Positions 22,523-43,831 of a DNA stretch of 55,593 nt are shown in pieces. How positions within the stretch are numbered: position 1 is the first letter of the stretch; every line of letters begins with the position of its first letter. Source of the DNA: a virus; the IMG/VR virus record IMGVR_UViG_3300048835_001002, positions 1 through 55,593 of that record; one strand, given 5' to 3'. The position numbers and the translations under genes are program-made. Below the pieces are notes generated by a model, which saw only the letters and a list, made by a program, of their open reading frames with translations, ran no database searches and was not told the DNA's origin.

Positions 22523-22747
22523 TTTGTATTTAATGGGGATATGCTAAAAAGCAAAAATCCCCTCAGTGGGGGACGTAGGATAAGGGATGCGACAAAAATT
22601 TGAGCTGTGTGGTAGCACTTAAATTATCTCGCTTTCCTCTCTCACGCAAGCCCTCAAGAAGAAAATTAAACTAAAAACCTCTTCCTGTATTTGCTGCTTT
22701 TTAGCAGACGCAGGCAGCTAGGATACCTTGCATCTTGGGAGCCAAGG

Positions 22748-25700
22748 ATGGCTGCGCATATTGCACTTGTCGAACATGCCAGTGAACTGACCGAACTCGC
22801 AGCCGCATGCGGGATCGACTGGTATCAGATCAAGAACCTGACGGCCGGCACGCACCATGATCTCCCCACCATTCATAAGAAGTACAGCAAACGCTGTACC
22901 ATGTGGGTACGCGAGTTCACAGATAAGGGTGGCAGCCCGCAGCTCAGCATCACATTCCACACTCGCAAGCACGGCGGTGTTACACGGAATTGGTATTCAC
23001 GCTCGCCCGGTGGTTTCGCAGGTCAGCTTCCCAAACGGAACGTCAGCCGCGAGGAAGCCGAAAGGAAGCGCCGCAAGGAACGGTTCCTTGCTTACCAGAA
23101 GGGCTGGGACTCCGCGCAAAAAAGCACCGGGTTTCCCTATCTCGACACAAAAGGCATCGCTGGCATCCTTGATCATTTTGAAATGAGGCAGACCTCGGAT
23201 CGCAAGGTCATGGGCAGCGGAAGCCTGACTCCATTCATCTGTTTTCCTCTTTTCAACCGCGACGGACATTACGTTGGACTTCAGCGTATCTATGCTGATG
23301 GAGCGAAAAGGCTCACGGCCGCTGTCATGGAAGGGCAGTACGTCGGTGCGCATTCCATCATCGGCAACCCGGAAACCAGCAAAGCGATCTATATCGGCGA
23401 AGGTTTTGCAACCTGCGCCAGCATTTTTCTGGCCACTGGCTCGGCAGTTGTTTTCGCCTATAGCGCGAGCAACCTCGACCCGGTCTGCGCCTATATCCGC
23501 TCAAAGTATCCCGAACACGAAATTATCATCGCGGCCGACAACGACTGGACACCAAAGGGCAACACCGGGGTGTTCAAGGCTCTGGAAGCCGCGCAGCAAA
23601 ACCGGACCAGAGGCGAGAGCCTTAAGATCATAGTCCCGCCGCTGATTGGTCAGGTTAAGACAGACTTCAATGATATTCATACCTGCCTCGGACTGGATGA
23701 GCTTCGGCAAACCCTGGCCGATCCTGCCAATACTGTGCGGCCGCCGAAGGAACGCGATCAGTTTTTACTGACCCTTCTCAGCCATGCCTATGCGCAGCAG
23801 ATGCCGGCGATTGTGAGAAGATTGGCGGTCATGCTCAAGGTTCCCCACCTCATTTCAGAAGAAGCGCTCCGCGAGCGGATCACCCAGGCCCTCGGCATCC
23901 GGGCTGATCAGCGCATGATCTTCAAGGCCATTCGTTCAGTCGTCATCGCTGGTAAGTACAAGGCCAAAGCCATCGCCGGCATTGATCCGAATAAGGTTCA
24001 GCAGTATCGACAGTTTCAAACGGTGCGAAACGAAGGTGGGCACCTCGTCATTGGTGAGGACGCTGTCCTTGCCGTGATGGAGGAACTAGGAAAAGGCAGA
24101 ACCGTTATCGTCAAATCCCCGATGGGAAGCGGAAAAACGGAGATTCTGATCCGAAAAGCGATGAAGGGCGCAGGGCGTGCAGCCCATATCCTGCCAAGGG
24201 TGTCGGTCGTCAACGATGCCGCAGGTCGGCTTCAGCTTGATCACTACCGCGACATCGACAAATTCCGGGCCTATTTCACCGATCAGATGGTCAGCTGTAT
24301 CAACTCCATGGGAGCCAAGCGCTTCATGGCCGATAATGGTCGCAACTGGTTTGAAAACCTCGACCTCCTCTGCCTTGATGAAGCCAGCCAAGTGCTCCCT
24401 CAGGTGGCCGCGCTTGGAAACCCTCTGCGCCGACGCGCCAACCACCACGCTCTGGTCAACTCCATAAAGACTGCGCGCTCCATTCTGATTGCCGATGCCG
24501 ACGCCAATGACTTTCTGGTGAGTGAGCTGAAACGGATTGATCCTGAGCGCAGCATAACGCTGATTGACATCGGCCATCCACCGGCTGAGCAGAAACGCTG
24601 GCGGGTGGGCGTTACAGACTCCGTTTCCTTCGTCAGAAAAGCGCTTCTTGATGCTGCAACAGATGGCGAGCGTTGTCTATTGGCAACGGATAACAGGCAA
24701 AAAGCCATTGAAATTGAGCGGGCGATTCGCTATCTCAGGCCAGGAGCAAGGGTTTTAAACATTCACAGAGAGCCATCCAAGGCCAATCTTGAAAAGATCC
24801 GCCGCTTCTATGACAATCCAAACGCTGAGTGCCTTAACTGCGATGTGCTGATCTACTCGCCTGCCATCACCTCGGGTGTCTCAATTACAACGCCTCATTT
24901 TACAAAGCACTTTGGAATCTTCACCGGCATTATCAAGGTGAACGATATCATGCAGATGCTTGGCCGCGATCGGACTGCCCAGGAGTGGCTTCTGGCCCTG
25001 GCGCCGCGCAGCTGGGCTGAGCAAAAACTTCGTGCTTCGATTGATCTTGAAAGCGTGGGGGAGTCACCAACGCTCTTTTCCGAACTCAAGTACGCGACCG
25101 ATCGCTATGAAATCGAGGCGCGTGAGAACCTTACTGTCCTGGCCATGAATATCCTCAAGATGAAGGGACACAAGGTTTCCATGCTCGATATCACGTCCTG
25201 GGAAGGGGCGGGGGCTATCGATATGCTGACGATGAATATCGCCAAAGGCATGAAAGAGGAGCGCCTCAGGCGAATCCTTGGCCAGACGGATATCAGCGAA
25301 AACGAGTACCAGAATCTGAAAAGACACTGGATGCCCGACGAAAACGAGGCTGCAGCCATGTATGCCTTTAAAATCCGTCATATCCTCTGTGCCGATCTCA
25401 CCGAGGAAAACGTCGCGTTCATGGATCAGGGTGGGCTCAAAAAAGTCGCCCTTTTTGAAACACTGCTCGGGAACGAAGCCGACCTCAGTCGATTCGATGC
25501 CGAAGAGAAGCAAACGCTTGATCCTTCGCTACGCTATCATGCGGCCGCGAAAAAGGATTTCCTCATGGCTGTGTTCAAGCGTCTCGGCATCTCACTCAAA
25601 ACATTTGTTGGCGAATTTACGCATAAGGAATGCCAGGCTGTGGTTGCCCTCTTTATGGAGCAGGCGGCGAAAGCCAATGCCGTTTTCGACGGAATCATTG

Positions 25701-25915
25701 ATTCTGAGCACCCGCCCCGCTGTGCGACCACGTTCGTCCAGAAGATCTTCCGAAAACTTGGCCTGCGTATTGGCGGCAGAAAATCCAACGGGCGCATGAT
25801 CCGTTACATCGAGCCATCCGATCTCTCCCGTATGCTGACCCTTCGTGAACGCCGCCGGGTCAATGGTCGATCACTTTTCTCCACTGGAATAAAGATAGAA
25901 TCCGAGGCTGCATAG
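22748..25915 (+). CDS. Large TOPRIM-helicase replication protein (UL9/CyRepA-like)
   Basis: The 1055-residue protein starts at ATG 22748, after GGGAGCCAAGG. An N-terminal part of about 200 residues leads to a TOPRIM domain with Glu218 (IYIGEGFATCAS) and Asp264/Asp266 (IIAADNDW). A superfamily 2 helicase follows: Walker A SPMGSGKT (457-464), DEAS-type motif II (LLCLDEASQ), and ITSGVSI and QMLGRDRTA as motifs V and VI. Helicases of this shape occur as herpes UL9-type origin-binding proteins and in replication initiators of some plasmids (CyRepA1). Next to parAB it is the best candidate initiator of plasmid replication. A separate CHC2 primase at 37.5 kb probably serves lytic growth. Confidence 0.8.
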   Translation: MAAHIALVEHASELTELAAACGIDWYQIKNLTAGTHHDLPTIHKKYSKRCTMWVREFTDKGGSPQLSITFHTRKHGGVTRNWYSRSPGGFAGQLPKRNVSREEAERKRRKERFLAYQKGWDSAQKSTGFPYLDTKGIAGILDHFEMRQTSDRKVMGSGSLTPFICFPLFNRDGHYVGLQRIYADGAKRLTAAVMEGQYVGAHSIIGNPETSKAIYIGEGFATCASIFLATGSAVVFAYSASNLDPVCAYIRSKYPEHEIIIAADNDWTPKGNTGVFKALEAAQQNRTRGESLKIIVPPLIGQVKTDFNDIHTCLGLDELRQTLADPANTVRPPKERDQFLLTLLSHAYAQQMPAIVRRLAVMLKVPHLISEEALRERITQALGIRADQRMIFKAIRSVVIAGKYKAKAIAGIDPNKVQQYRQFQTVRNEGGHLVIGEDAVLAVMEELGKGRTVIVKSPMGSGKTEILIRKAMKGAGRAAHILPRVSVVNDAAGRLQLDHYRDIDKFRAYFTDQMVSCINSMGAKRFMADNGRNWFENLDLLCLDEASQVLPQVAALGNPLRRRANHHALVNSIKTARSILIADADANDFLVSELKRIDPERSITLIDIGHPPAEQKRWRVGVTDSVSFVRKALLDAATDGERCLLATDNRQKAIEIERAIRYLRPGARVLNIHREPSKANLEKIRRFYDNPNAECLNCDVLIYSPAITSGVSITTPHFTKHFGIFTGIIKVNDIMQMLGRDRTAQEWLLALAPRSWAEQKLRASIDLESVGESPTLFSELKYATDRYEIEARENLTVLAMNILKMKGHKVSMLDITSWEGAGAIDMLTMNIAKGMKEERLRRILGQTDISENEYQNLKRHWMPDENEAAAMYAFKIRHILCADLTEENVAFMDQGGLKKVALFETLLGNEADLSRFDAEEKQTLDPSLRYHAAAKKDFLMAVFKRLGISLKTFVGEFTHKECQAVVALFMEQAAKANAVFDGIIDSEHPPRCATTFVQKIFRKLGLRIGGRKSNGRMIRYIEPSDLSRMLTLRERRRVNGRSLFSTGIKIESEAA

Positions 25916-26206: not shown

Positions 26207-26254
26207 CAGGGAGACTTCACTTTCCATCATATAAAGATAGGCAAAGTCTCCCTG
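26207..26254. repeat. Long stem-loop CAGGGAGACTT / AAGTCTCCCTG
   Basis: Perfect 11-base arms enclose a 26-base AT-rich loop containing TATAAAG. A stem this long and exact outside genes suggests an RNA structure or a binding site flanking a promoter. Confidence 0.5.
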
Positions 26255-26464
26255 GTTCACGGCCGAACCATCTTGCAACGATATCCTCCATGATTACTGT
26301 TTATTCATAATTGTACAATAATCGAACAATATTCATGTGTTACGCGACGAAAGGTTCTTGTAACTCTTCAGATTCATGGCGGATATTATACTCTTACCGA
26401 GAACAGCTGCCGTGGTATGTCTGTTGCTCCTAAGGGCTTAAATAAGCCCATCCAGGAGTCAAAC

Positions 26465-27049
26465 ATGAAATGCAGGGTCATCCGCACTGATGATGAATTG
26501 AAACAGTATGTCGATCGTTTCGCGGAATACTCCGGGATCGTTTATCCGTTTCAATACTTACGCCCAGCAAAAGTATTCGGAATGTTCGACTCCGAAAAGC
26601 TTGTAGGTGGCTTCATTCTTGCTGATGGCGACAATATCCGCTGGATGAAGCAGATTCCCCTCGAAAACAATGAATTTTTCAAATCTGTCGATCCGTCCAT
26701 GCTCGTCGAACTCAACGGGGTTTGGCTCGATGCCTCCCTCCGAAAATCCAACAAGACCATTGATTTCTGGTCATATGTGGCGAAGGAAATCGTTGCTTTT
26801 GGGAAGCCTATTCCCACGTTTGCATACATTACAGAAAGAAAAGGTCTAGCTGAACTCTATCAGCCCATAACTGTAGGGAAAATATTTGCAGGTCAAATGA
26901 CCACATCAGATAAACACCTGACAGTTTGCTATTCCAATCTGTTCAGATTCCGATATTTCAAAGTATTGTATGCTGGTCGTTACGTGACACGATACTTTAG
27001 AGACGGCGGGAAAAGTGAGCAGCACCTCCAAAAAGCAGCTCGAAGCTGA
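26465..27049 (+). CDS. GNAT-like acyltransferase
   Basis: The 194-residue protein starts at ATG 26465 with AGGAGT upstream. Its central beta-strand pattern (VFGMFDSEKLVGGFILADGD at about 36-56, then WLDASLRKSNKTIDFW and a FAYITERKGLAELYQP element) resembles GNAT-fold N-acyltransferases, including the acyl-homoserine-lactone-synthase-like branch. I see no signature that fixes the substrate. It is the first gene of a three-gene unit and overlaps the cyclase gene by 35 bases. The class is an inference from pattern; an acyl-transfer role in making or modifying a small signal is possible. Confidence 0.55.
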   Translation: MKCRVIRTDDELKQYVDRFAEYSGIVYPFQYLRPAKVFGMFDSEKLVGGFILADGDNIRWMKQIPLENNEFFKSVDPSMLVELNGVWLDASLRKSNKTIDFWSYVAKEIVAFGKPIPTFAYITERKGLAELYQPITVGKIFAGQMTTSDKHLTVCYSNLFRFRYFKVLYAGRYVTRYFRDGGKSEQHLQKAARS

Positions 27050-28379
27050 AAAGCTGTACCAACGTTTTCTGAATGCTCAGGCAACCAAAGTAATAGGAAG
27101 CCGATGGGGACTGGTCCTCATCGCAGTCCTGCTGGCTCTTGTAGCGTATGACATTTCCAATTTTAAAAATGATATGGATCGAATTCTGGTCGGGGCGCGC
27201 TTCGCACCCTGTATTATTCTCATACTAATCTCGCTTTTCAAGCAGGAAAGTGTGAGTCCATCCTGGATGGAGAATGCGCCGCACTGGTTCGATTTGATCT
27301 GTGTTTCATATGTCGGCGCCTCCGTGCTCTTGACGATCATATGCCACAAAACTGAATTCCCGCTGGATTCTGCACCGATTCAAATCTCTCTCTTCGCAGC
27401 TTGCATGCTTGGTTTTCATAGCCTCCGCTATATTATGATACGCAACATATTATTTGTCTTTCTGGTCAGTGTCTCAATCGCATTGTTCGATTCTACATCT
27501 CTTCTCATCGCGCAAGCTGCTCAACTTATAGTAGGTGGCGGAGTTGGATCTGTGATCTTTTTGTTAATAACAAATAGTTTGTTTCAAAACCAGTACATCA
27601 TCAGTACTCGGTTAAGCCAGCAGACTTTGGACTTCCAATCCCACCTCGAATCGACAAAATATGACCATCAGAAGACCATGATTTTCGACGGGTTCAAGGA
27701 AGAGGAAACCATGCCTTGCCACACCGGGGAAGCTCTTGTCTTTAAGCTCGATGTCATTGATAGTTCAAAGATACGGGACACCAATTATCCGAGGCATTTT
27801 GAAGCCTTCTGCGAAGAAGCCGAGGCTGAGTTACTGTCACACATGACAGTAGCAAGTTTGGACCCCGTTTTTCTTAGGGGTAGAGGGTATTTTATAAAGA
27901 GTGTCGGTGATGCGGCCATTTTTTCGATAGGAAATCCTGTTGCTGTAGCGAAGCCCTATACCATGCAGGACGCCACTGATTTCCTACTGAAAACAATCGA
28001 CGCAGCGTTCAAAAAGCATATGTCCAGAGTCTCATCAGAAAATCCTATCCTATATTGCATCGGGGTTGCATATGACAACTTGCAAGGTGGTTTCTCAGGT
28101 AAGAGAAAATTCTATGACTTGAACGGCAGAGGGCAGATTCTCGCAGAACGCTATGAGAACCTGCGAAAGAGATTCCAATCCCTATCAATACCTCTTCCGA
28201 ATGGAAATTTTTTAATACTCCAGGATAAAGCAAAGGCCTTCTTTACCAATGAATTTCTTTATACTTTTGAAAAAGTTCATGTAGACGCGATAAGAGATGA
28301 CGAAGCTGCAACCTTCTTTTGGATCGTCCAGCTTCGCAAAGATAAAGTCCGAGTGACATTGCTTGATCAAGTTTCATAG
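27015..28379 (+). CDS. Six-TM membrane protein with class III nucleotide cyclase domain
   Basis: The 454-residue protein starts at GTG 27015. Residues 31-187 hold six hydrophobic helices (about 31-46, 64-78, 92-110, 122-137, 142-158, 166-187) and a linker follows. From about 240 comes a class III cyclase domain: VFKLDVIDSSKI with Asp246, FIKSVGDAAIFSI with Asp299 (both metal Asp retained), and YDLNGRGQILAERYENL in place of the usual N-AAR helix. Substrate-specifying residues are not readable by eye. It would make a cyclic nucleotide in response to something sensed by the membrane part. Flanking acyltransferase and ICMT-type genes overlap or lie close. Confidence 0.78.
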   Translation: MSSTSKKQLEAEKLYQRFLNAQATKVIGSRWGLVLIAVLLALVAYDISNFKNDMDRILVGARFAPCIILILISLFKQESVSPSWMENAPHWFDLICVSYVGASVLLTIICHKTEFPLDSAPIQISLFAACMLGFHSLRYIMIRNILFVFLVSVSIALFDSTSLLIAQAAQLIVGGGVGSVIFLLITNSLFQNQYIISTRLSQQTLDFQSHLESTKYDHQKTMIFDGFKEEETMPCHTGEALVFKLDVIDSSKIRDTNYPRHFEAFCEEAEAELLSHMTVASLDPVFLRGRGYFIKSVGDAAIFSIGNPVAVAKPYTMQDATDFLLKTIDAAFKKHMSRVSSENPILYCIGVAYDNLQGGFSGKRKFYDLNGRGQILAERYENLRKRFQSLSIPLPNGNFLILQDKAKAFFTNEFLYTFEKVHVDAIRDDEAATFFWIVQLRKDKVRVTLLDQVS

Positions 28380-28399
28380 CCGACTTTCGGAGATATCGT

Positions 28400-28966
28400 T
28401 TGGAAAAGATTATGATTGCCTTCAAGATTTTGTTGATTGTCCAGCTGGTAGCCTTCAGAGTGATTTACCGCAGCCAGATTTTTTGGAAGGATAAAAAGAC
28501 AAAATCTGAGAAAGATGTCAGCTGGCTTAAAAATCTTCTTCCTCCCATGCAATTGGGAATTTTCGTTGTTGTCGCATGGGCCATGCAGAGCGAAGGATCT
28601 GCTGTGCTCCTTGCAATTGGCAACTCTATATCGTTCTGCGGGCTGTCACTAATATTTTGGGCCAAAAAAACACTGGGAGAAAACTTCTCTGAGTGTACTG
28701 ATATGTACATTCCCAATTCGATTGTCACTGTAGGGCCTTATAAAGCCATCCGCCATCCGATATATACTGGAAATATTGTGTTTCTGTCAGGCCTGGCGAT
28801 CGCCTGTTCGTCGATCGTGCTTATAGCCATTACCATTTTCTTTGTAATTTTCTACTCAAAATCTGCATCAATTGAAGAGCAGGAACTGCAATTGAAGTAT
28901 CCCGATTATCAAAAGCACATAGAAGTCACTGGACGATTCCTGCCAAAAATCCTCAAAGTCAAATGA
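28400..28966 (+). CDS. Isoprenylcysteine carboxyl methyltransferase (ICMT)-like membrane protein
   Basis: The 188-residue protein starts at TTG 28400 with GGAG seven bases upstream; ATG 28412 is an alternative. It has four to five hydrophobic segments. The ICMT/PEMT signature is at the C-terminus: TVGPYKAIRHPIYTGNI (about 112-128) with a following EEQELQLKYPDYQKHIE (about 157-173), the SAM-binding 'RHP.Y.G' and 'EE..L...F...Y..Y' elements. It would methylate a lipid-like or prenyl acid. It follows the cyclase gene by 20 bases, forming an operon with it. Confidence 0.85.
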   Translation: MEKIMIAFKILLIVQLVAFRVIYRSQIFWKDKKTKSEKDVSWLKNLLPPMQLGIFVVVAWAMQSEGSAVLLAIGNSISFCGLSLIFWAKKTLGENFSECTDMYIPNSIVTVGPYKAIRHPIYTGNIVFLSGLAIACSSIVLIAITIFFVIFYSKSASIEEQELQLKYPDYQKHIEVTGRFLPKILKVK

Positions 28967-29249: not shown

Positions 29250-29642
29250 TTATGAGTTTCTGCGCAGAAAAACAGGACGTATTTCAACGGTTTTGATTGC
29301 ACCCGCGATCGTCTCGACAATCGTATCCAAATCGAAAGGCTTGTTTACGAGTGCGTGAACGAATGGCTTTACTTGAGATAAATCAAAATTTTCGTGGTAG
29401 CCGCTGACCAGAATAATGGGTAGATGTGGTCGCAGCTGATGACATGCTTTCGCCAGTTCAACACCATTCATCGTCGGCATACAGAGATCACTAAGAAGAA
29501 GGCTTATTTCTGGGTTTCCTTTCAAACGCTGGATGGCTCTCAGGCCGTCCTCAGCCTTCACAACTGCAAAACCGGACTGCTCCAGATAGTCCGCGATAAA
29601 ATCCCGCACGGTCTGGTCGTCGTCCACAACGAGAATGGCCAT
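29250..29642 (-). CDS. Single-domain response regulator (CheY-like receiver)
   Basis: The 130-residue receiver domain starts at ATG 29642, with AGGGAG as ribosome site; an ATG six codons upstream lacks one. It has the acidic pair (VVDDDQTVRDF), phospho-acceptor Asp in LLSDLCMPTMNG, the Thr/Ser position in IILVSGYHENF and the conserved Lys in LVNKPFDLD. There is no output domain, so it acts by protein-protein contact or as a phosphate sink. No histidine kinase is in the window, so a host kinase must phosphorylate it. It is a chromosomal-type gene carried as cargo. Confidence 0.85.
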   Translation of the reverse strand: MAILVVDDDQTVRDFIADYLEQSGFAVVKAEDGLRAIQRLKGNPEISLLLSDLCMPTMNGVELAKACHQLRPHLPIILVSGYHENFDLSQVKPFVHALVNKPFDLDTIVETIAGAIKTVEIRPVFLRRNS

Positions 29643-29675
29643 GAAAGCACTCCCTGACATTGAATTTGGCTTTAA

Positions 29676-29897
29676 TCATAGCACAATTCCCTGCAGGCCG
29701 GTAGCGTTGTAGTGATCTTCCACCATTGCCAGTGTAATGCCATAATCTGCTGTAGCCTCGTGCCAAGATTGATTTTTTACGGGACGGACCAGGTTATTAG
29801 GAAGCACAAGTCCTGCCTCATTGATGATCGCATTCTCCAGAATTTCATCATGCTCGGGATCAAGGCCGGTTGTTTCTGTGTCCAAAAATATTTGCAT
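29676..29897 (-). CDS. Truncated DnaQ-like 3'-5' exonuclease fragment
   Basis: The 73-residue frame begins with the ExoI motif of DEDD exonucleases (IFLDTETTGLDPEHDEILE). It then diverges and stops where ExoII and ExoIII, about 100 residues on, should follow. Complete enzymes of this family need about 170 residues, so this is probably a remnant or a small protein derived from one. It lies just after the ParB-HTH gene on the same strand, with 16 bases between. Confidence 0.6.
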   Translation of the reverse strand: MQIFLDTETTGLDPEHDEILENAIINEAGLVLPNNLVRPVKNQSWHEATADYGITLAMVEDHYNATGLQGIVL

Positions 29898-29913: not shown

Positions 29914-30789
29914 TCAACCGATCATGCTCCGGCAGGCCGAGCAGAGCGGACGGCCGTGTTTGAATCGGACCACAGAAAGCAGCTTGATCCTGTCGCAGAC
30001 GCCATCCAGAACATCTCCATTCCCCGCACTGATCACCATCAAGCCTTTGGACCAGTCAATGATATTGGCTTTGGCATTGCTCAGCGCCGCGGACACATCC
30101 TCCTCGGTGCGCTTCACATTCTCGCTCTTGGGCGGCTGCACTGTTTCTGTGCCGGGAGCATGGGCAAGGCGCTGGACCTCTGCTTCAAGTTCCTTCACTC
30201 GGCGAAGAGCGGCCGAGAATTTATCCATGGAGAGCTCACCCTGAAGATTGCGCACCTCTGATTCCAGCTGCTCAACCTTTCGCTGCTGCGCCTGGCGGCT
30301 GCTGCGCTCTTCGTTGACCAGCTGCTCCAGCCGCTTCGCCCGGGCTTCTGCTGGCTCTGAGATTTGGAATGGGGATTTTCCTTCAATGACGAGATCGACC
30401 GCTGCAGCAAGTGTCATGCGGGATTTGAGAACCCGGCGCCGTCCGTCGCTCGTCACCCGCCCCTGGTCTTTGAAGGTGGTGCGAGCCAGACGCATAAGCA
30501 TGCGCAAAGGAAAACGGTCTTCATGGATCAGGATTTTCGCGCGGATCTGCGTCGGCCATGCCGCAGCCTTGATCATACGCGAGACGGTTGCCTGGCTGAC
30601 ACCGAGAGCCTGGCCCATCATGGGCTGTGCATGTCCGGCTTTGTCGAGCAGCAGGAGTCGGTCGCCCAGATCGAACCACTCCTCGGCCGTGGCCGGCGGC
30701 TTCAGTCCTATCAGCTGGGACGGCACCACGCGGAGTTTGGGCGGTCTTCCACGCCCTTTGCTTGTCTCCAGGGCGACAAAACTGGCCAT
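29914..30789 (-). CDS. ParB/KorB-type HTH protein with AT-hook and coiled coil
   Basis: The 291-residue protein has an AT-hook-like KGRGRPPKLR near residue 10. A ParB-type HTH follows at about 35-75 (LLLLDKAGHAQPMMGQALGV then SQATVSRMI), then the usual helical extension. A long coiled coil runs at about 150-215, and the tail carries a CSAC pair. It lacks the N-terminal CTP-binding ParB domain, so it is not a second complete ParB. It may silence or regulate genes, or act in partition. The gene-free stretch upstream (30790-31160) holds several palindromes that could be its operators. Confidence 0.7.
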   Translation of the reverse strand: MASFVALETSKGRGRPPKLRVVPSQLIGLKPPATAEEWFDLGDRLLLLDKAGHAQPMMGQALGVSQATVSRMIKAAAWPTQIRAKILIHEDRFPLRMLMRLARTTFKDQGRVTSDGRRRVLKSRMTLAAAVDLVIEGKSPFQISEPAEARAKRLEQLVNEERSSRQAQQRKVEQLESEVRNLQGELSMDKFSAALRRVKELEAEVQRLAHAPGTETVQPPKSENVKRTEEDVSAALSNAKANIIDWSKGLMVISAGNGDVLDGVCDRIKLLSVVRFKHGRPLCSACRSMIG

Positions 30790-37466: not shown

Positions 37467-39917
37467 ATGCGGATTCCGGAAGAAACCAAAAAAACCATCA
37501 AGGCGCTCTTGCCACCAGAGAAGCTGGCCGCCATGCTCGGCATTAGCGTAAAAAATTCCATGCTGCTTTGCCCCTTTCACGAGGACACAACGCCGAGCAT
37601 GAGCTGCAAGCGCGCCAAGTTCCGTTGTTTTGCCTGTGGAAAAAGTGCTGACGTGATTGAGTTTTATGAGAAGTATCGTGGGCTCGATTTTGTTGACGCC
37701 GTCCGCGATCTTGCAGCCCATGTCGGAGTCGACATCTCTGATCCGCAACCGAAGAAGTCAGACCGGAAAAAGACTGACTCGAAGGACGGTGCATATTCGT
37801 TCGGTTCGATCGAGGAGGCCCGCCGCTATTATTCAGCTCGCCCGGGCTACCGGTTGATTGCAGATCATGGGTGGTCAAATGATGACGGCACTCCCAACAA
37901 GCACGTCTTTCGGCTTTATCCTCTTGACCCCTTCGAGCGCAAGCAGTTTCCAACCGTTTTTCCGTCTGACGGCCGCTGGGTTAATAAAAAACCTGGGAGC
38001 CACCAACGCCCGCAGCCTTATCTCTGGGGCTCATGTCAGGACGGGGCCGAGGTGTTCATCTTTGAAGGCGAATGTGATGTCGAAGCTGCACAACACGAAG
38101 GATTTCCCGGCACTACAACGGGCAACTGCCACAGCTGGCATCCAGACTATGCACGGTATTTTCGTGGCAAGTACGTTGTGATTGTTCCTGACTGCGACGA
38201 ACATGGGGCGCGATACGCCGATGCCATTGCCGAGTCGCTCCGCTCTGTCTGCCTCGGCCTCAAGATAATCGACCTTGGTGGCTCGGACGGGTTCGACTTC
38301 AGAGACTGGCTAAAAGCCGGTGGGACGGCCGAAGTATTTCGGAAGCTCGTGGATGCGGCTCCAGACATTCTCCTCGCCTGGAACGCCCCCAAGGCGTCCT
38401 GGGATGGATTTGAACGCATACCCTATTTCGATTCCGATGAGATGCTCCACTGGTCGATCCGCTACTGGATCGAATACCTGGCGGCCGACCTTCAGGCACC
38501 TATTGATGCCATCGCCGCCGGGGTCATCACAGCTCTCTCGACTGTTATCGGCGCGAAGGTCTTTCTTTACCCCAAGGTCCATAGCACGACATGGCGCGCC
38601 TATGCCTGCATCTGGTATTTGCTGGTGGCGCCGGCCGGTGACAAGAAGACGGCAATTCAAAAAGCGTCGCTCGCCATGGCCTTTTTGCTCGATAAGGAAC
38701 TCTCGCGCCTGAATGTGGAAGCGGCTGCTCTGCGAGATGCCGAGGAGTCAACCCTGAAAATCGAGCGACGCCAACTGGAGGCGCAGTTGGCTGTGGCCAT
38801 TGAAAAGGGTAACGATGTGCAGCTTCTTCAGGAGCAGCTGACCCGGAAAGCGGCCCGGCTTCTGGCTCTTTCCAAGGAGGGCGACCGAAGCCTCATCGTC
38901 CAGGACGTGACCCCGGAAAAGCTGAAGGAGCTTCTGGTTCAAAATCCAAACGGTCTTCTCCAGTATAACGATGAGTTCGGTGGCTTCTGGCGCAATCTTG
39001 CCAAGGGCGCTCACACGGATTCGCGCTCGGTTTACCTTGAAGCCTGGAACGGCGGCGAAATCAAGGTCCAGCGCAAGAAGGGATCGTATTCCGGCTGGTC
39101 GATTCTCTCCTTTGTCAGCAGCACCCAGCCTGATTGGCTCAAAACTGTCATCGATGAAATCGTCGCTGGCACTGACCAAAACGATGGGCTCATTGCCCGC
39201 TTTGGTTTGATCGTCGCACACGACCGCCCCATCGGAACTTTCAAGTGGCACGATGCCCCCTTCAACCCAAAGGGCAAGGACCTTTTCGAGGAGATCTTTC
39301 GCCGGCTTTGGGAACTTAAGGTTCCTGAGGACCAAAGGGCCTTGCGCTTTGATCCAGAGGCCCAGGAGTTTGTCGTCCAGTGGATGGAGGAGCATCACAA
39401 TTTCTGGCGGGACAGCAAGGACCGCCCGGCCATGCGCAGCCACATGGATAAGCAGACAAGCCTTTTTTGCTCTCTCTCGATTATCTTTCACATGCTCTTC
39501 TGTTTTGAGGCAGAGGAAATCACTGACGAAAATAGCAGCTTCAGTCGGGAAATCTCCATCCATTCCGCTCGCATGGCAGCCAGCTGGTGCCGTTACATAG
39601 GCTATCACGTGCGCAAGGTCTACGAGCCAAAGCAAGGCTACTGGGACCCCTCGGTTCGCTCATTTGCGGCTCAGGTACTGGCTGGCAGGATAGTCGACGG
39701 CATGTCGCGTTCGGAAATTCTTGCGAAGAGGTTTCAGCATCTGAAGACAGCGAAAGACCTTGATAGCGCCATCCAGGGATTGCGCGAACTGAATCTCGTG
39801 CAGGAGACGGAGACTTTTCAGCCCGGTGGCGTGCGCACGCAAAAGGTTATTCGCATCAACCCGGCATCGCTGGAACGCTCCGATCCAATTGCTGTCAAGG
39901 ATGATAAAAATACATGA
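37467..39917 (+). CDS. CHC2-TOPRIM primase with DUF3987 helicase-like part
   Basis: The 816-residue protein has a DnaG-type zinc finger (Cys35, His38, Cys54, Cys57 in LLCPFHEDTTPSM and FRCFACGKSADVI). A TOPRIM domain follows with Glu200 (FIFEGECDVEAAQ) and Asp242/Asp244 (VVIVPDCDEHGAR). From about 320 on comes a DUF3987-type ATPase-like domain with an altered Walker A (APAGDKKTA, 388-396). It would prime, and perhaps unwind, DNA in phage replication. It heads the rightward early operon and is the second primase of the window, beside the TOPRIM-helicase at 22.7 kb. GGAG lies about ten bases before the ATG. Confidence 0.9.
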   Translation: MRIPEETKKTIKALLPPEKLAAMLGISVKNSMLLCPFHEDTTPSMSCKRAKFRCFACGKSADVIEFYEKYRGLDFVDAVRDLAAHVGVDISDPQPKKSDRKKTDSKDGAYSFGSIEEARRYYSARPGYRLIADHGWSNDDGTPNKHVFRLYPLDPFERKQFPTVFPSDGRWVNKKPGSHQRPQPYLWGSCQDGAEVFIFEGECDVEAAQHEGFPGTTTGNCHSWHPDYARYFRGKYVVIVPDCDEHGARYADAIAESLRSVCLGLKIIDLGGSDGFDFRDWLKAGGTAEVFRKLVDAAPDILLAWNAPKASWDGFERIPYFDSDEMLHWSIRYWIEYLAADLQAPIDAIAAGVITALSTVIGAKVFLYPKVHSTTWRAYACIWYLLVAPAGDKKTAIQKASLAMAFLLDKELSRLNVEAAALRDAEESTLKIERRQLEAQLAVAIEKGNDVQLLQEQLTRKAARLLALSKEGDRSLIVQDVTPEKLKELLVQNPNGLLQYNDEFGGFWRNLAKGAHTDSRSVYLEAWNGGEIKVQRKKGSYSGWSILSFVSSTQPDWLKTVIDEIVAGTDQNDGLIARFGLIVAHDRPIGTFKWHDAPFNPKGKDLFEEIFRRLWELKVPEDQRALRFDPEAQEFVVQWMEEHHNFWRDSKDRPAMRSHMDKQTSLFCSLSIIFHMLFCFEAEEITDENSSFSREISIHSARMAASWCRYIGYHVRKVYEPKQGYWDPSVRSFAAQVLAGRIVDGMSRSEILAKRFQHLKTAKDLDSAIQGLRELNLVQETETFQPGGVRTQKVIRINPASLERSDPIAVKDDKNT

Positions 39918-43098: not shown

Positions 43099-43193
43099 GT
43101 TTCCTTGTTTTTCTCTGCCTTTTCCCCTTCGCCATCTTTGCAGCCGGATTTTTCTTTGGCTCGCTTTTCACACGGAGTGATCTCAATAAATGA
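43095..43193 (+). CDS. Small one-TM protein, 32 aa
   Basis: ATG 43095 overlaps the preceding stop (ATGA) and its own stop overlaps the next ATG (AAATGATG). It encodes MSFLVFLCLFPFAIFAAGFF followed by FGSLFTRSDLNK: one hydrophobic helix and a short basic/acidic tail. Position between the ATPase and the Tad2-like gene with overlaps on both sides suggests it is translated. Function unknown. Confidence 0.55.
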   Translation: MSFLVFLCLFPFAIFAAGFFFGSLFTRSDLNK

Positions 43194-43831
43194 TGCGTAC
43201 CAATCCCGCCGACCGTGACCCTCTTTCAGTTCACGGCCACCTCTCCCGCATTCTCTGTCTTCTTGCTGATGATGATGACAAGGTGTTCAATCGCTCACTG
43301 TCCTGGGCACTCACTGCCGCTGAGTCCGGCGCCCGCGTGAAGCGCAAGGGCTGGCCCGAAGGACAGTATCTCATCATGCACCAGGGTATTCCGGACGGCT
43401 CGCGCGGACGTCTTAACCTGACTCCGTCCCTCCTCCGTGCCACGGCGATCTTCCCAGGCAAAAAGCGGCTGATTCTCGTCAAAGACGGCCAGGCCTCGAT
43501 CTTCTGCGGCAGCGCCCTGCTCGATGAAGGCGAGATCGCGGCTGATTGGGGTTATGCCGAGGTTAGCCGCAGCTTTCAGTGGGCCTATGATCAGATGAAA
43601 GCAGGCAAGCGTGTGCGGCGCCGCTGTTGGCCAGAGAGCAGCTTTCTATGTGTGGCAAAGGGGTTTGAGATCGAACGCCTGAAATGCGGCCGCTCGCTAA
43701 GCGACACGCTTCGGAAAAAGGTCGCGGTCGACCCGACGGTTACGGTGCTTGCGCTTGTTCAGGAGGGAATGATCAGCGAACTCCACGATTATCCACTGTC
43801 GAGCTGCGACTGGAAACTGGTGAACCCATGA
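43190..43831 (+). CDS. Tandem DUF2829 (Tad2-like) protein
   Basis: The 213-residue protein has two copies of the DUF2829/Tad2 fold pattern. Domain 1 (about 33-117): FNRSLSWALTAAESGARVKR, then KGWPEGQYLIMHQG, and ends IAADWGY. Domain 2 (about 128-211): FQWAYDQMKAGKRVRRRCWP, then LCVAKG and a final SSCDWKLV. The hallmarks are 'aL..l..Gk+v.R..W' and a closing DW. Tad2 proteins sequester Thoeris signal molecules as tetramers. A two-domain version would be a fused dimer. Ligand residues are not checked by eye, so an anti-defence role is inference from the family. Confidence 0.8.
   Translation: MMRTNPADRDPLSVHGHLSRILCLLADDDDKVFNRSLSWALTAAESGARVKRKGWPEGQYLIMHQGIPDGSRGRLNLTPSLLRATAIFPGKKRLILVKDGQASIFCGSALLDEGEIAADWGYAEVSRSFQWAYDQMKAGKRVRRRCWPESSFLCVAKGFEIERLKCGRSLSDTLRKKVAVDPTVTVLALVQEGMISELHDYPLSSCDWKLVNP

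Follow-up and report, generated by a model that had tools for sequence, protein, structure and literature searches.

A phage-plasmid genome in the IMG/VR collection carries, directly past the 3′ end of its repA gene, a compact cassette of three genes. They encode an orphan protein, a protein with six predicted transmembrane spans and homology to class III nucleotide cyclases, and a membrane methyltransferase of the ICMT/PEMT family. The three genes are maintained together, and they occupy a cargo locus that in a sister phage holds the phage-defence nuclease SNIPE. The explanation that we prefer, with a probability of roughly 0.4, is that the cassette is prophage cargo that alters the host through a lipid- or membrane-sensing cyclase and a membrane methyltransferase, and that its likeliest benefit would be resistance to competing phages. 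Two of the three parts fall within known families, and their combination, like the cyclase subfamily itself, appears to be undescribed. Our literature searches yielded no paper with this gene set, nor one that describes a phage-encoded adenylate cyclase by name.

Organization and conservation of the cassette

The analysis covers the whole of a 55,593-nucleotide stretch (record IMGVR_UViG_3300048835_001002), referred to here as the window. Features of the cassette and its surroundings are collected in Table 1. Gene 2 begins at a GTG codon inside the end of gene 1, such that the two genes overlap by 35 nucleotides, and 20 nucleotides separate gene 2 from gene 3. The GC content of the cassette is 0.42-0.45, compared with 0.54 for the upstream repA. 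Gene order, overlap and gap are all the same in a sister lineage, L002, whose DNA is ∼84% identical to that of the window and whose proteins are 93% (gene 1), 85% (gene 2) and 88% (gene 3) identical to their counterparts. A further IMG/VR record, L003, is identical to L002 over 17,362 bp, and the two are counted as one lineage.

Table 1. Features of the cassette, its flanks and the corresponding locus in sister phages (window coordinates unless a sister record is named)
Feature	Coordinates	Strand	Description
Inverted repeat	26207..26254		11-bp arms CAGGGAGACTT / AAGTCTCCCTG, 26-nt spacer; ∼300 bp past the end of repA
Leader block	26289..26352	+	ATGATTAC..TTTATTCA..TTGTA.AAT.AT..AACAATATT..TGTTACGCG; conserved in the sister lineage (alignment)
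Gene 1	26465..27049	+	194-aa orphan protein; ATG start, AGGAG ahead of the ATG
Gene 2	27015..28379	+	putative class III nucleotide cyclase with membrane spans, 454 aa; GTG start
Transmembrane region of gene 2	27090..27572	+	six predicted spans with short loops; residues 26-186
Cyclase homology domain of gene 2	27735..28169	+	residues 241-385
Gene 3	28400..28966	+	188-aa ICMT/PEMT-family membrane methyltransferase (by sequence); TTG start, GGAG ∼8 nt upstream
HTH/ParB-like regulator	29914..30789	-	right border of the hotspot; conserved in the three sisters; weak HTH/ParB_C matches
ATP-grasp ligase gene	L002:5753-7057	-	divergent from the cassette; absent from the window
L015 cargo	L015:13556-17926		SNIPE/PD-lambda-1 and three unknown genes, one for a 339-aa protein and two that are small and secreted/lipoprotein-like

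Between the window and this sister, Nei-Gojobori estimates of dN/dS are 0.056 for gene 1, 0.090 for gene 2 and 0.133 for gene 3. For comparison, the values for RepA and for the regulator on the right-hand side are 0.087 and 0.068. Synonymous divergence in this comparison is ∼0.5-0.9, and stop codons are absent from all three genes. Both parts of gene 2 are constrained, with a dN/dS of 0.088 for the membrane part and 0.068 for the catalytic part. Because order, overlap and gap are kept and dN/dS is low, all three are real genes that have been maintained together. These sequence comparisons argue that they form one conserved, actively maintained unit, in agreement with a first-pass annotation that had called them a unit from their overlap and close spacing. 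That annotation also made its reading depend on the three genes being found together elsewhere. They are, but in one other, closely related lineage only.

The cassette is thus known from two lineages. No relatives of genes 1 and 2 were returned by tblastn among 72,556 plasmids or 50,697 phages, nor by two scans of contigs from cellular genomes, which used one or two short peptide patterns and had low sensitivity. Three pattern scans, one of these two among them, in which artificial filler rows in the alignment steered the choice of pattern, yielded the known sisters or nothing. PADLOC matches none of the three proteins. Ahead of gene 1, the conserved leader block is a possible promoter or operator, and the search for a consensus sigma-70 promoter gave no match better than chance.

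The encoded proteins

Gene 2 has no match in Pfam, NCBIfam, PADLOC or PHROGs, and the Pfam profile for class III catalytic domains, Guanylate_cyc (PF00211), does not find it even at E ≤ 10. Its homology to class III cyclases is evident from comparisons of structure models and profiles. The AlphaFold model of the protein was built from two sequences and is of low confidence (mean pLDDT 36). With this low-confidence model as the query, the best 15 PDB matches returned by Foldseek are all class III adenylyl or guanylyl cyclases, including AC5 (the best, E 2.7e-4), Pseudomonas aeruginosa CyaB (2.8e-4), sGC and GC-A; Foldseek against viral models returned no cyclase. A profile HMM trained on 15 class III cyclases from plasmids assigns 12.8 and 17.5 bits to the catalytic domains from the two phage lineages, and no more than 3.1 bits to any of 300 shuffles or to any other open reading frame of the window. 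Alignment with class III cyclases by hhalign gives 92.5% and a score of 47, compared with 17.6 or less for 60 column shuffles. Taken with the predicted hydrophobic spans at residues 26-44, 57-75, 92-110, 119-137, 140-158 and 168-186, with which the helices of the AlphaFold model agree, these sequence and model comparisons identify gene 2 as a divergent membrane class III cyclase.

Most of the residues expected of an adenylate-type enzyme can be located. In the hhalign alignment, D246 (in KLDVIDSS) and D299 (in KSVGDA) fall on the metal-binding Asp residues of the family, and both are identical in L002. K295, four residues before D299, aligns to the Lys that determines specificity in the family, and we take D368, in YDLNG, to be the adenine-binding Asp of the YDIWG sequence of mammalian adenylyl cyclases. 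The catalytic Arg is retained as R379, and the position of the transition-state Asn is filled by I375, so the activity of gene 2 may be low or altered. On these residues, gene 2 is predicted to be an adenylate-type enzyme whose product would be cAMP. Direct autoregulation by cAMP-CRP was rejected because CRP-like sites are not enriched and stand below chance (11 seen versus 20.7 expected).

The closest architectural parallel is with the Rv1625c-type six-TM adenylyl cyclases of Mycobacterium tuberculosis, which likewise join six short-loop spans to one class III domain and have in common with gene 2 the metal Asp pair, the adenine-type Lys/Asp and the Arg. They differ from gene 2, which is missed by the Pfam cyclase profile, carries Ile in place of the transition-state Asn, and shares a phage-borne operon with a methyltransferase gene. 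The quorum-sensing receptors CqsS and LqsS have the same minimal six-span sensor, a likeness of design, but there the sensors are linked to histidine kinases. Sensing of a lipid-like ligand by a six-TM cyclase would have good precedent by analogy. A CqsS anchor makes the Rv1625c cyclase respond to the autoinducer CAI-1 (PMC4821796), C18 mono-unsaturated fatty acids inhibit Rv1625c through its membrane domain (PMC12505454), and the membrane domains of mammalian cyclases respond to lipids (PMC11606603).

Gene 3 can be placed by sequence in the ICMT/PEMT family of membrane methyltransferases. It matches the Pfam families PEMT (1.6e-11; 45 bits, cut-off 25) and ICMT (2.2e-9; 38 bits, cut-off 24) as well as the solved ICMT structure 4a2n (4.1e-9). 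With this ICMT, LmtA, MddA and phospholipid methyltransferases it shares the GPYxxxRHPxY motif, present as GPYKAIRHPIY at residues 112-122, and the EE motif, at residues 159-160. It departs from the family in being only 27-35% identical to its best plasmid-borne relatives and in scoring far below the cut-off of the NCBIfam model isopcys_mtase (NF040696; 55 bits, cut-off 160), so that it does not qualify as a true protein-S-isoprenylcysteine methyltransferase. Members of the superfamily include phospholipid, lipid A-phosphate and methanethiol methyltransferases. The descriptions given in the first-pass annotation, of gene 2 as a six-TM nucleotide cyclase with both metal Asp residues kept and of gene 3 as an ICMT-type methyltransferase, therefore stand.

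Its description of gene 1 as a GNAT-like acyltransferase was not confirmed. Scans with Pfam, NCBIfam, PADLOC and PHROG give no match, and Acetyltransf_1 (PF00583) gives none at E ≤ 10. Against seven Escherichia coli GNATs, gene 1 scores 11.9 in hhalign, below the maxima for shuffles (17.9) and unrelated controls (19.6), although its query consists of two near-identical rows and a very remote GNAT could escape; as a positive control, each E. coli GNAT scores 34-83 when left out in turn. The AF2 model of gene 1 is very poor (pLDDT 32), and Foldseek with that model returns no GNAT. The acetyl-CoA pyrophosphate loop (R/Q-x-x-G-x-G/A) is also absent, the candidate stretch being LDASLRKSNKTIDFW. With family scans, controlled profile alignments and Foldseek with the pLDDT 32 model all negative, gene 1 is best regarded as coding for an orphan protein, and its identity as a GNAT is not supported. 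Since it is not supported as an acyltransferase, the earlier idea that genes 1 and 3 make a methylated acyl signal lacks the first enzyme of the proposed synthesis.

A cargo hotspot downstream of repA

The window encodes ParA, ParB, a terminase, a portal protein, a tape measure protein, tail proteins and a CyRepA1-type RepA, and the earlier placement of the cassette in the accessory region of a phage-plasmid is upheld by these genes. Among named phages, the nearest relatives of RepA are those of Halomonas phage phiHAP-1, Vibrio phage VP882 and Yersinia phage PY54. The window carries two unlike replication-type proteins, this RepA (22691-25915) and a protein that combines DUF3987 with a CHC2 zinc finger (37467-39917). 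Elsewhere, a gene at 43190-43831 encodes a Thoeris anti-defence 2 (Tad2)-like domain (PF11195, 1.2e-10) and is possibly a counter-defence gene. A low-GC run of four genes at 49320-55350, outside the coverage of the L002 contig, ends with a gene for an 852-aa protein that has a weak, below-cut-off C-terminal match to EndoU-like domains (0.0012); besides this weak match, the run has no convincing family match.

Alignments of the window, L002 and a third sister phage, L015 (IMGVR_UViG_3300048592_001279), all break at the inverted repeat, which forms the left edge of a variable region. The RepA of L015 is 92% identical to that of the window, and its DNA is 89% identical up to the break. L015 matches the window as far as base 26252, at the inverted repeat, and then again from base 29921, where the right-hand regulator gene ends; we read this regulator as KorB-like. 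In the slot, L015 encodes a protein with DUF4041 and GIY-YIG type domains that matches the PADLOC model PD-Lambda-1 at 1.3e-113. PD-lambda-1, since renamed SNIPE, is a membrane-bound nuclease and cleaves the DNA of phages as it is being injected (PMC13190303). It is unrelated to the cassette proteins and shares with them its location alone. The L002 alignment breaks at the same left edge, and in this lineage the ATP-grasp gene lies as an extra gene between that edge and the cassette. Because three phages have the same left edge and different cargo between the edges, the locus after repA is a cargo hotspot, and one of its occupants comes from a proven phage-defence family.

Two further genes lie between the cassette and the right border in the window. 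One encodes a stand-alone response-regulator receiver domain with no output domain (29250-29660, minus strand); L015 has another such gene at a different locus (L015:21183-21542, minus strand). The second is the remnant of a DnaQ-like exonuclease gene (29676-29897, minus strand) that is intact in L002 (9978-11180), where it encodes 400 aa.

Among related linear plasmid phages, the stretch that follows repA is a documented location for variable modules, which control lysis by a route independent of SOS (PMC10432266). The VP882-type repA-telN modules resemble the present arrangement in having a related RepA with a variable module directly after its gene. They differ in that the cassette has neither TelN nor a pair consisting of a transcription factor and a small protein. 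The TelN protelomerase (PF16684) is absent from the window, L002 and L015 records, which are possibly incomplete. A repeat of the VP882 arrangement was rejected on this absence from the three possibly incomplete records, and the locus is therefore not strictly the same as the repA-telN locus.

Possible roles of the cassette

According to our preferred explanation, the cassette would be prophage cargo that entered a CyRepA1-type phage-plasmid immediately behind repA. The six-span domain of gene 2 would sense either a lipophilic ligand or an altered state of the membrane, upon which the class III domain would make a cyclic nucleotide, predicted to be cAMP. Gene 3 would methylate a lipid or a small lipophilic, thiol or carboxyl molecule, and this methylation might make or tune the ligand of gene 2, or might itself be the output on the membrane. 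The product of gene 1, probably co-translated with the cyclase, is perhaps its partner or regulator. No phage receptor for cyclic nucleotides was found, so the message would be read by host proteins, such as those of the CRP type, or would stay local. Resistance of the lysogen to competing phages seems the most likely benefit, given that a sister phage has SNIPE in this slot. Defence is thus the leading guess, and the position of SNIPE is suggestive only, because just two lineages are involved and because the cargo of the locus in L002 includes an ATP-grasp gene, which is not known for defence. We also entertain, as possible and more tentatively, that the cassette is a prophage-encoded immune or communication system of a new kind, in which a lipid-sensing six-span cyclase, the methyltransferase and the orphan protein together turn membrane chemistry into a cAMP signal. 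That chemistry would be either phage entry or a methylated lipid signal, and the cAMP produced would protect the lysogen or set the timing of lysis.

Other explanations were weighed. The cassette might be a module for lysis-lysogeny decisions or communication. Its cyclase would sense a lipophilic signal that genes 1 and 3 perhaps make or methylate, and induction would be timed through host cAMP signalling, in the manner of the sensory modules next to repA in VP882-type linear plasmid phages. The kinship of RepA with the phiHAP-1, VP882 and PY54 proteins, the lysis-controlling modules that related phages carry in the interval where the cassette lies, and the response of chimeras between CqsS and a six-span cyclase to CAI-1 all speak for this reading. 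We nonetheless consider it doubtful: TelN is missing from the window and its sisters, the known modules comprise the two-protein pair that the cassette lacks, no acyl synthase was identified, and SNIPE occupies the same place in a sister phage. Its positional support from modules adjacent to repA is weaker than that for defence. Metabolic or surface conversion of the lysogen, unrelated to phage competition, seems unlikely. Here the physiology of the host in its niche would change because the cyclase raises its cAMP and the methyltransferase modifies a membrane lipid or a thiol compound. The substrates known for the ICMT/PEMT superfamily are consistent with such a role, and the ATP-grasp ligase gene adjoining the cassette in L002 suggests small-molecule chemistry. 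However, metabolic cargo usually comes from host genes that have close relatives in cells, and none turned up in plasmids, in phages or, at limited sensitivity, in genomes.

Pycsar systems, which pair PycC with PycTM or PycTIR, share with the cassette a class III cyclase on a mobile element and a possible role in defence. If gene 1 or gene 3 were a death effector that the cyclic nucleotide activates, the cassette might be a divergent Pycsar-like system or another defence based on cyclic nucleotides. The class III cyclase, its place in a defence-bearing hotspot and its two neighbours, of which one is a membrane protein, would fit this reading. We judge it improbable. The Pycsar effector is an adjacent protein in which a CNBD is joined to TM or TIR; genes 1 and 3 contain no such domain and are neither PycTM nor PycTIR, and a search of the window and of the L002 and L015 records for CNBD (PF00027) gave nothing at E ≤ 1. 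The cassette differs also in its six-span sensor and added methyltransferase. By sequence, moreover, gene 2 has the K295/D368 adenylate pair instead of the pyrimidine-type residues of PycC, for which the sets F/R/Q, Y/D/R and F/K/F are described (PMC11224242). Membership in Pycsar proper is ruled out by the missing CNBD and the adenylate-type residues, with no PADLOC match, and the earlier view that the cassette is distinct from Pycsar is upheld. Least probable is a decaying or inactive block kept by chance. The replacement of Asn by Ile in the cyclase and the truncated DnaQ-like gene next door would be expected of such a block, but strong purifying selection on all three genes over a dS of 0.5-0.9, with no stops, largely refutes it.

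Membrane adenylate cyclases have recently been shown to be lipid receptors, and to our knowledge few of their natural ligands, above all those of bacterial enzymes, have been identified. The present cassette may be a hitherto undescribed system of defence or signalling. It brings such a cyclase and a membrane methyltransferase together on one small mobile element, and its ligand and purpose are testable from a 2.5-kb clone. If it blocks phages, defence signalling would extend to an adenylate-type class III cyclase that acts without a Pycsar effector. If it instead sets the timing of lysis, it would represent a new kind of phage sensing. In either case, the hotspot that holds SNIPE in one sister and the cassette in the others is a place to seek further undescribed cargo.
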